The notes under the pieces were generated by a model. It saw nothing but the letters and a program-made list of their open reading frames with translations, was not told where the DNA came from and did no database searches. Positions 6,310 to 34,686 of a stretch of DNA of 64,000 nt are shown here, one piece after another. Position 1 is the stretch's first letter. Each line of letters begins with the position of its first letter. Both the position numbers and the translations under genes were made by a program. The stretch covers positions 1 to 64,000 of the forward strand of contig NZ_JAANCN010000004.1 in assembly GCF_011326735.1 (NCBI RefSeq), written 5' to 3'. The stretch is from Phycicoccus endophyticus. GTDB taxonomy: Bacteria; Actinomycetota; Actinomycetes; Actinomycetales; Dermatophilaceae.

Positions 6310-6321
6310 GCCCGGTGCCGC

Positions 6322-6349
6322 CCCACGGTGCGGGGCGGCTCACCGTGGG
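6322..6349. terminator. Hairpin terminator between convergent transcripts
   Basis: Perfect 9-bp arms (CCCACGGTG at 6322-6330 and CACCGTGGG at 6341-6349) with a 10-nt loop, 12 bp after the stop of the DUF255 gene. There is no T-tract on either strand, which is common for actinobacterial terminators. It could also end the minus-strand unit that appears to start near 6715. Confidence 0.6.
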
Positions 6350-6666
6350 ACGGCCCCGCGGACACCGGGAGGCGCAGAGGGGAAGTGACCGGCGCCGCGG
6401 CCCCGGTCACCGCCGTCCCGGCATCCGCCGACCCGCCCCGGTGCCGCGCGGGCGTCCGGGAACGGGCCGAGCGGGTACCTCCGCGCGTGGCGGAGGTCCC
6501 ACTGGGTCAGGACGGCGTGTCGTGCCCGGGAGTCGGCCCCGGGGACGGCAGGAGGCGCACGCCGGAGGAGGCGCCAGCGACCGGGCGCCGACGTGCGGCG
6601 CGGGCTGGGCGTCCGAGGAGGTCCGGGCCGGTCCGTGGACCCGTCCGGGCGGTGCGATGGACACAT
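6340..6666 (-). CDS. Doubtful small ORF (108 aa) behind a hairpin leader
   Basis: An open frame from ATG 6666 begins MCPSHRPDGS and is rich in Pro, Arg and Ser with no recognisable domain. Third-position G/C looks lower than in the neighbouring genes, so translation is uncertain. What supports it is context: 18 nt upstream is a hairpin almost identical in its loop to the one before the gene at 33928, whose product also begins Met-x-Pro-x-His. The stop codon lies next to the 6322-6349 hairpin. It may be a real small protein, a decayed paralogue, or a noncoding RNA of about 390 nt. Confidence 0.28.
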   Translation of the reverse strand: MCPSHRPDGSTDRPGPPRTPSPRRTSAPGRWRLLRRAPPAVPGADSRARHAVLTQWDLRHARRYPLGPFPDARAAPGRVGGCRDGGDRGRGAGHFPSAPPGVRGAVPR

Positions 6667-6795
6667 GGCACAGCCTGTGCTCGAGCCGGGTTCCCCTGCT
6701 GAAGCCCGACGGAACATGACGAATGTAGCAGCAGGGAGGGCCCGGTGGCAGGGCGCGAGCGCGGGACTGGACGCCGTCGGGGAACCCCTCGGGGC
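6350..6795. other. Gene-poor interval between convergent genes
   Basis: With the terminator this is a roughly 490-bp gap between the DUF255 gene and apbE. It holds no frame with convincing codon use. I see a possible minus-strand -10 hexamer TACATT (6727-6722), a hairpin at 6685-6710, an 8-bp inverted repeat CCCTGCTG/CAGCAGGG (6694-6701 and 6729-6736), and the doubtful small ORF. The base composition is close to the genome background. No tRNA or known structured RNA was recognised. Confidence 0.6.
6685..6710 (-). promoter_or_regulatory. Leader hairpin, copy A (loop CAGCAGGGG)
   Basis: Read on the minus strand, GUCGGG-(C)-UU pairs with AA-CCCGGC around a 9-nt loop CAGCAGGGG, with one bulged C and one G-U pair. 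The 14-mer TTCAGCAGGGGAAC (6703-6690) is identical to the one at 33889-33902. A -10-like TACATT lies 11 nt upstream and an ATG 18 nt downstream, so the hairpin would sit at the very 5' end of the transcript. This is probably a conserved 5'-UTR element; its function is unknown. Confidence 0.5.
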
Positions 6796-33869: not shown

Positions 33870-33875
33870 TACCCT
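33870..33875 (+). promoter_or_regulatory. Possible -10 element
   Basis: TACCCT fits TANNNT and lies 7 nt upstream of the leader hairpin, so transcription would begin right at the hairpin. No convincing -35 is present. The matching hexamer of copy A is TACATT at 6727-6722 on the other strand. Confidence 0.35.
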
Positions 33876-33882
33876 GAGCGCA

Positions 33883-33907
33883 GTCCCGTTCAGCAGGGGA
33901 ACGGGAC
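33883..33907 (+). promoter_or_regulatory. Leader hairpin, copy B (loop CAGCAGGGG)
   Basis: A perfect 8-bp stem GTCCCGTT/AACGGGAC closes a 9-nt loop CAGCAGGGG. It is followed after 20 nt, including a GGGAAAGG ribosome site, by the ATG at 33928. Its 14-base core is repeated exactly in copy A at 6690-6703. The stem in copy A differs in sequence but keeps pairing, which suggests RNA structure is selected. Confidence 0.55.
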
Positions 33908-33927
33908 ATGCAGGGAAAGGCACGGCC

Positions 33928-34686
33928 ATGGGTCCGTACCACGATCGGCGTGCGCCCGTGCTCGGGGCACCACACCACGCGGGGAGCCCAGCCCCCCGCG
34001 GCCACACGCGCCACCGGCCCGACCGGGGCGGGGGCGAGCCGTCCCCTCCGGCCCTGGAGCGGGCGCTGACCTCCTGGCTCGTCGGCGCCCCGGGGACCGT
34101 CGACGACGGCGAGGACGCCCGGGCCACCGGGTTCGCCGACCACCTCGCCGAGGCGCTCTCCCTCGACCTGCCGCCGCGGGTCGTGACGCCCGCGGACACC
34201 ACGCTCGCCGCCGCCCGGCGACCGGACCGCACCCTGCTCGAGCTCGGCCGGGCCAACCTCCTGCTCCGGCTACGGGCCGCCGAGCTGGACGTCGTCCACC
34301 TCGGCCCGGCCCGGCGCGGGGTCGTCGCGCTCGTCGGCGACTCCCCGTACGTGGCCTCCTTCGCGCTCTTCCTCCCCGCCGCCATCGAGCGCTGGCTGCC
34401 GGGGGCCGACCTCTCCGGCGGGGTCCTCTTCGCGGTCCCGCACCGACATGCCCTGCTCCTGGCCCCGAGCCCGGGAGCGGTGGAGACGCGCGAGGGGCTG
34501 GACCTGCTCCCGACCTACGCCGCCCAGATGTACGCCGACGGCGAGGGCGCGCTCACCCCCCACGTCTACCACTGGGCCGAGGGGCGGGTGCGCTGCGTCA
34601 CCACCGAGCTCGGCGACGGGACGCTGGGCGTCCTGCCCACCGCCCGGCTTGATGCCCTCCTGGGTACCGACCGGCGCGCCGGCTGA
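33928..34686 (+). CDS. Unrecognised protein with hairpin leader
   Basis: The product is 252 residues, beginning [10 protein letters not shown]. Residues 1-40 are Pro/Arg/His/Gly-rich and look disordered. Residues 45-250 look folded, with good codon use and hydrophobic stretches such as [25 protein letters not shown] and [17 protein letters not shown] (first shown in part). The latter loosely resembles DUF1444-type proteins, but I do not claim membership. GGGAAAGG upstream of ATG 33928 supports that start. A competing ATG at 33908 opens only a 53-codon frame. It stands alone, convergent with cdsA. Confidence 0.75.

Follow-up and report, generated by a model that had tools for sequence, protein, structure and literature searches.

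Target mRNAs of the Csr/Rsm systems carry the CsrA motif, with the consensus ANGGA, both in a hairpin loop and at the Shine-Dalgarno site. CsrA has been described as binding GGA motifs in mRNAs and as being sequestered by small RNAs (PMC4894983, PMC7652899). Two actinobacterial RNAs also invite comparison: Ms1, whose neighbour is a gene for a HAD hydrolase or CpaE (PMC9130861), and 6C RNA (RF01066). Here we analysed a window, the whole stretch of 64,000 nucleotides of Phycicoccus endophyticus DNA, that contains two hairpins with the same GCAGGG loop.

A sequence-only reading of the window had claimed that the 14-mer TTCAGCAGGGGAAC occurs exactly twice, and this was borne out. The exact matches lie at 33889-33902 (+) and 6690-6703 (-) and are the sole copies in the whole 3.18-Mb genome, while shuffled windows gave a mean of 0.12 matches at two or fewer mismatches. 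In a set of 58 related genomes, the exact 14-mer was confined to the window's own genus; at up to one mismatch, two orthologous groups, type A (the 33889 copy) and type B (the 6690 copy), accounted for most of the copies in that genus. The genus sample comprised 12 Phycicoccus genomes, counting the window's own (G000); a protein-based scan placed P. flavus, P. sonneratiae, P. avicenniae, P. jejuensis, sp. HDW14 and sp. CSK15P-2 in the genus and grouped 'Nostocoides' sp. Soil756 inside it. Comparison of the loci indicates that the two 14-mers are one copy each of two separate orthologous Phycicoccus RNA elements. The reading had also placed a TANNNT hexamer 7-11 nt upstream and an ATG 18-20 nt downstream of each hairpin. 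These distances are correct when measured from the hairpins, where TACCCT (33870-33875) ends 7 nt and TACATT (6727-6722) 11 nt upstream, and an ATG follows 20 nt (33889 copy) or 18 nt (6690 copy) downstream. The Met-x-Pro-x-His start that the two frames share is unconserved in the orthologues of either element and is a coincidence.

Type A comprises the following features.

33870..33875, plus strand: predicted -10 hexamer TACCCT (TANNNT in 15/15 copies)
33883..33907, plus strand: type-A hairpin with a 9-bp stem and the loop AGCAGGG (33892-33898), from orthologues and pairing
33893..33898, plus strand: first GCAGGG, located in the loop; unchanged in 15/15 type-A copies and also found in 11/11 type-B hairpins
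33910..33915, plus strand: second GCAGGG, outside the hairpin and next to the Shine-Dalgarno region (GGGAAAGG, ending at 33920); invariant in 15/15 copies
33928..34686, plus strand: type-A gene P0001, encoding a 252-aa uncharacterised protein with a faint DUF1444 likeness below cut-off

In the window the hairpin reads GTCCCGTTC-AGCAGGG-GAACGGGAC from 5' to 3', a perfect stem in which 33883-33891 is paired with 33899-33907. A covariance-model search for conservation and covariation, as the reading had proposed, found type A in 12/12 genomes, in 15 copies that include tandem paralogues of three species. All 15 hairpins lie ahead of the ATG of one and the same gene or of a paralogue, the common position before a start codon that had been anticipated. 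Within the genus the type-A model scored nowhere else above about 22 bits. In all 15 copies the hexamer ends 17-19 nt 5' of the loop GCAGGG, and the second GCAGGG lies 9-11 nt further on, beside the ribosome-binding site; the loop itself varies from 6 to 8 nt in length.

In a structural alignment that was made by hand and verified against every letter of the loci, 118 of 120 cells of the type-A stem are standard pairs. Double changes, affecting both sides, are seen at six of the eight stem pairs. One such compensation runs from GTTC/GAAC to GCTC/GAGC, with GTTC/GAGC as an intermediate. When the arms were re-dealt among species, a mean of 83.6 were paired versus 94/96 observed (p ~5e-5), and an energy-based arm test had the same outcome (p 5e-5), although these and the later permutation p-values overstate independence because the genomes compared are kin. 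Together the results strongly support the conclusion that type A is a leader hairpin whose RNA structure is under selection, placed where a transcript is predicted to begin. The claim of a hairpin before a start codon, as a likely translational-control leader at the predicted start of an mRNA, is supported for the 33889 copy. The loop AGGGG had been likened to a Shine-Dalgarno sequence, which is unlikely because a separate GGGAAAGG lies nearer to the ATG.

The type-A gene lies between an rlmN-like gene on the opposite strand and a convergent cdsA-like gene. Relatives of its product are 240-279 aa long. P0001 had no match in Pfam at E 0.001 and none in NCBIfam; DUF1444 matched P0001 at E 0.25, within a range of 0.04-0.25 that is below the cut-off. 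Its AlphaFold model is confident (pLDDT 84), and no solved structure with a matching fold was found for it. Of the 53 genera sampled within the taxonomic family, 9 have homologues; identity is about 20-38% in the other genera, and the homologues outside the genus are without the hairpin. Proteins of this type are acidic (pI 4.8-6.3), and therefore P0001 is unlikely to be an RNA binder itself. Tandem duplicates of the gene in three species (L111/L123, L121/L124 and L113/L125) keep the hairpin leader with each copy.

Type B has a different architecture, and its features are as follows.

6722..6727, minus strand: predicted -10 hexamer TACATT in the context GCTGCTANNNT (GCTGCTA kept in 11/11)
6317..6715, minus strand: apparently noncoding type-B RNA of about 400 nt; both of its ends, like transcript starts, RNA length and noncoding status generally, are inferred from sequence
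6685..6710, minus strand: type-B 5' hairpin with the loop AGCAGG(G), from an arm test (p 0.004) and a consensus fold
6349..6443, minus strand: type-B 3' domain of two stacked helices with a one-sided bulge, from pairing and the R3 model
6375..6384, minus strand: pyrimidine bulge TTCCCCTCTG (TTCCCTCTG in most species), with CCCTCTG invariant in 11/11
6317..6354, minus strand: terminator-like hairpin CCCACGGTG...CACCGTGGGG, seen in the sequence

Type B was found in 11 of the 12 genomes; the genome without a match (G002) is in 710 contigs, so its absence there is uncertain. The locus is unannotated and lies downstream of apbE on the same strand, convergent with a DUF255/DsbH gene; a ferric-reductase-like gene is also among its neighbours. 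From the hexamer to GCAGGG the distance is 22 nt in 10/11 and 24 nt in one. The stem of the 6690 copy, GTCGGGCTTC-AGCAGG-GGAACCCGGC, is imperfect, with a C-A mismatch or bulge. Arms from one genome fit each other better than they fit those of other genomes (p 0.004), a weaker result than for type A. The view that an invariant loop and a covarying stem reflect selected RNA structure at a predicted 5' end is strongly supported by the 15 type-A copies and less strongly by the 11 type-B orthologues.

In these 11 genomes a conserved 5' end and a conserved 3' domain enclose a variable middle. The 3' domain consists of a 16-bp helix, the one-sided bulge with CCCTCTG and an inner helix; 96.7% of its cells are paired, versus 42-52% when slid, and the changes are mostly one-sided. 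The R3 model of this domain scored 68-81 bits in the 11 Phycicoccus genomes and had zero matches at E 0.001 in the other 237 (236 outside the genus and G002). The bulge is predicted to be unpaired with a probability of 0.78-1.0 per base. The terminator-like hairpin is without a T-run and was uncalled by a terminator scan; a similar one comes after the 3' domain in most orthologues, and it is possibly shared with the convergent DUF255 gene.

The ATG downstream of the type-B hairpin was considered as a gene start and rejected. In three close species pairs the differences at codon positions 1/2/3 of this frame were 12/10/10, 7/14/13 and 16/18/20, and one species pair showed 1-nt indels. Because substitutions are even over codon positions, 1-nt indels occur and the 3' RNA domain is strongly conserved, type B is apparently the 5' end of a noncoding RNA and not an mRNA leader. 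The reading's mRNA start and translational-control leader therefore do not extend to the 6690 copy, whose ATG opens no real gene. Upstream of the type-B -10 hexamer, a CCTG(T/C) block at about 6745-6755 (-) is conserved in all 11 aligned species and is possibly a -35 element or the site of an activator.

Covariance models of Rfam (4227 families) gave no match to either element at the gathering or a relaxed threshold, in keeping with the earlier statement that no known riboswitch was recognised. Outside the genus, the R1 and R2 models returned weak scattered matches, and those inspected were unlike the element, bar one loose look-alike; the large searches used strict filters by which distant relatives could be missed, and their E-values are approximate. 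The motifs were not found in the region 3' of DUF255 homologues in other genera either. We conclude from these searches that neither element is convincingly present outside Phycicoccus. The look-alike, TCTGTTCGGCAGGGAACAGA, lies at about 1501-1551 on the minus strand of L209 in another genus of the family (G100). It is a hairpin with a GGCAGG loop that resembles type A at 26 bits and adjoins a masked stretch, and it could be due to chance. Separately, G002, the one genome in which type B was not found, holds an exact TTCAGCAGGGGAAC as the loop region of an approximately 18-bp hairpin between convergent genes (L040:9530-9620; L048), probably a terminator with a chance occurrence of the 14-mer.

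Several features resemble the Csr/Rsm systems. In type A a purine-rich motif occupies a hairpin loop and a second copy sits beside the Shine-Dalgarno sequence in 15/15 copies, and type B is an apparently noncoding RNA whose hairpin loop carries that motif too, as in the CsrB/RsmY decoys. In contrast, the motif here is GCAGGG(G) and not the CsrA consensus, and type B has one conserved motif hairpin where a decoy has many repeats. A search for CsrA (PF02599), for which three control genomes gave matches, found it in 5/12 Phycicoccus genomes; it is absent from 7/12, including the window's own, which excludes CsrA as the factor in this genome. Membership in Csr/Rsm thus fails, since CsrA is absent here, and what stands is a working analogy. 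Type B is also like Ms1/6S-like RNA in being a long structured actinobacterial noncoding RNA (Ms1 is about 300 nt) with short hairpins at its ends. However, type B lies between apbE and the DUF255 gene, and its identity with Ms1 was rejected on these wrong neighbours (apbE, the ferric-reductase-like gene and DUF255). Similarly, 6C RNA is an actinobacterial sRNA with exposed pyrimidine-rich segments, as is type B; it is encoded elsewhere, in all 12 genomes, and its covariance model had no match at the type-A or type-B loci. Pairing of the 6C poly-C loops with GCAGGG was rejected, as no specific match was found.

By analogy with Csr/Rsm logic, we tentatively propose that GCAGGG in the type-A and type-B hairpins is recognised by a single trans-acting factor, a possible reading that we hold at well short of even confidence. 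On the type-A mRNA the factor would bind the loop and the Shine-Dalgarno-proximal GCAGGG together and so control translation; the type-B RNA, presenting the same hairpin, would compete for this factor or be controlled by it. The same fixed loop at the predicted 5' end of two transcripts is consistent with this proposal, as is the fixed spacing of type A from hexamer to loop and from loop to second site. Against it, a second GCAGGG was not found beside the type-B hairpin, the A and B hairpins are one nucleotide apart in their usual stem register, and the type-A gene's homologues in other genera are without the hairpin. That the noncoding RNA and one mRNA leader, with the same GCAGGG-loop hairpin, make up a lineage-specific post-transcriptional circuit served by a non-CsrA RNA-binding factor is a conjecture we regard as doubtful.

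The main rival, which we consider rather unlikely, holds that type B is a trans-acting antisense RNA whose UUCCCUCUG bulge pairs with the G-rich loop of type A, and with its Shine-Dalgarno region, and in cis with type B's own 5' loop. The bulge is conserved and predicted to be open, and across 11 genomes the predicted duplex with the type-A leader reaches -12 to -16 kcal/mol and ranks in the best 0.4-5% of random 60-nt stretches. However, shuffled bulges equalled this complementarity in fractions of 0.02-0.14 for the loops and 0.36 for the Shine-Dalgarno site, a weak excess, and the bulge of the window's genome has an extra C without a matching loop change; two-sided covariation was not seen. 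The predicted pairing is thus suggestive and statistically weak.

A rather unlikely alternative of another kind is that the two hairpins are independent, each stabilising the 5' end of its mRNA or RNA or shaping translation start, with a loop favoured by an RNase, the ribosome or RNA polymerase. Both hairpins do lie at a fixed distance from a predicted promoter, and a regulon of two transcripts would be very small. Nevertheless, a stabiliser needs neither an invariant GCAGGG loop nor a second invariant GCAGGG, and the motif was found on no other transcript of the genus.

The inverted repeat GTTC-N7-GAAC adjoins the predicted -10 hexamer at both sites, as a DNA operator for a transcription factor might. 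In an operator the arms would be fixed and the spacer free; here the spacer is the invariant part and the arms change in compensating ways, which favours RNA recognition. With a loop of 6 to 8 nt and an asymmetric type B besides, we consider an operator very unlikely. A missed ligand-binding riboswitch or known RNA family would account for a structured leader before a gene, but is highly improbable given that no Rfam family matches and that the leader consists of one short hairpin and has no junction.

Little is known of post-transcriptional regulators in high-GC actinobacteria. Under the shared-factor proposal, a frozen loop on a covarying stem, common to an mRNA leader and a noncoding RNA, would offer a handle for finding the factor, and both RNA partners are small and easily cloned. 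If real, the two elements, neither of which is matched by Rfam, would contribute a new RNA family and a new class of leader.
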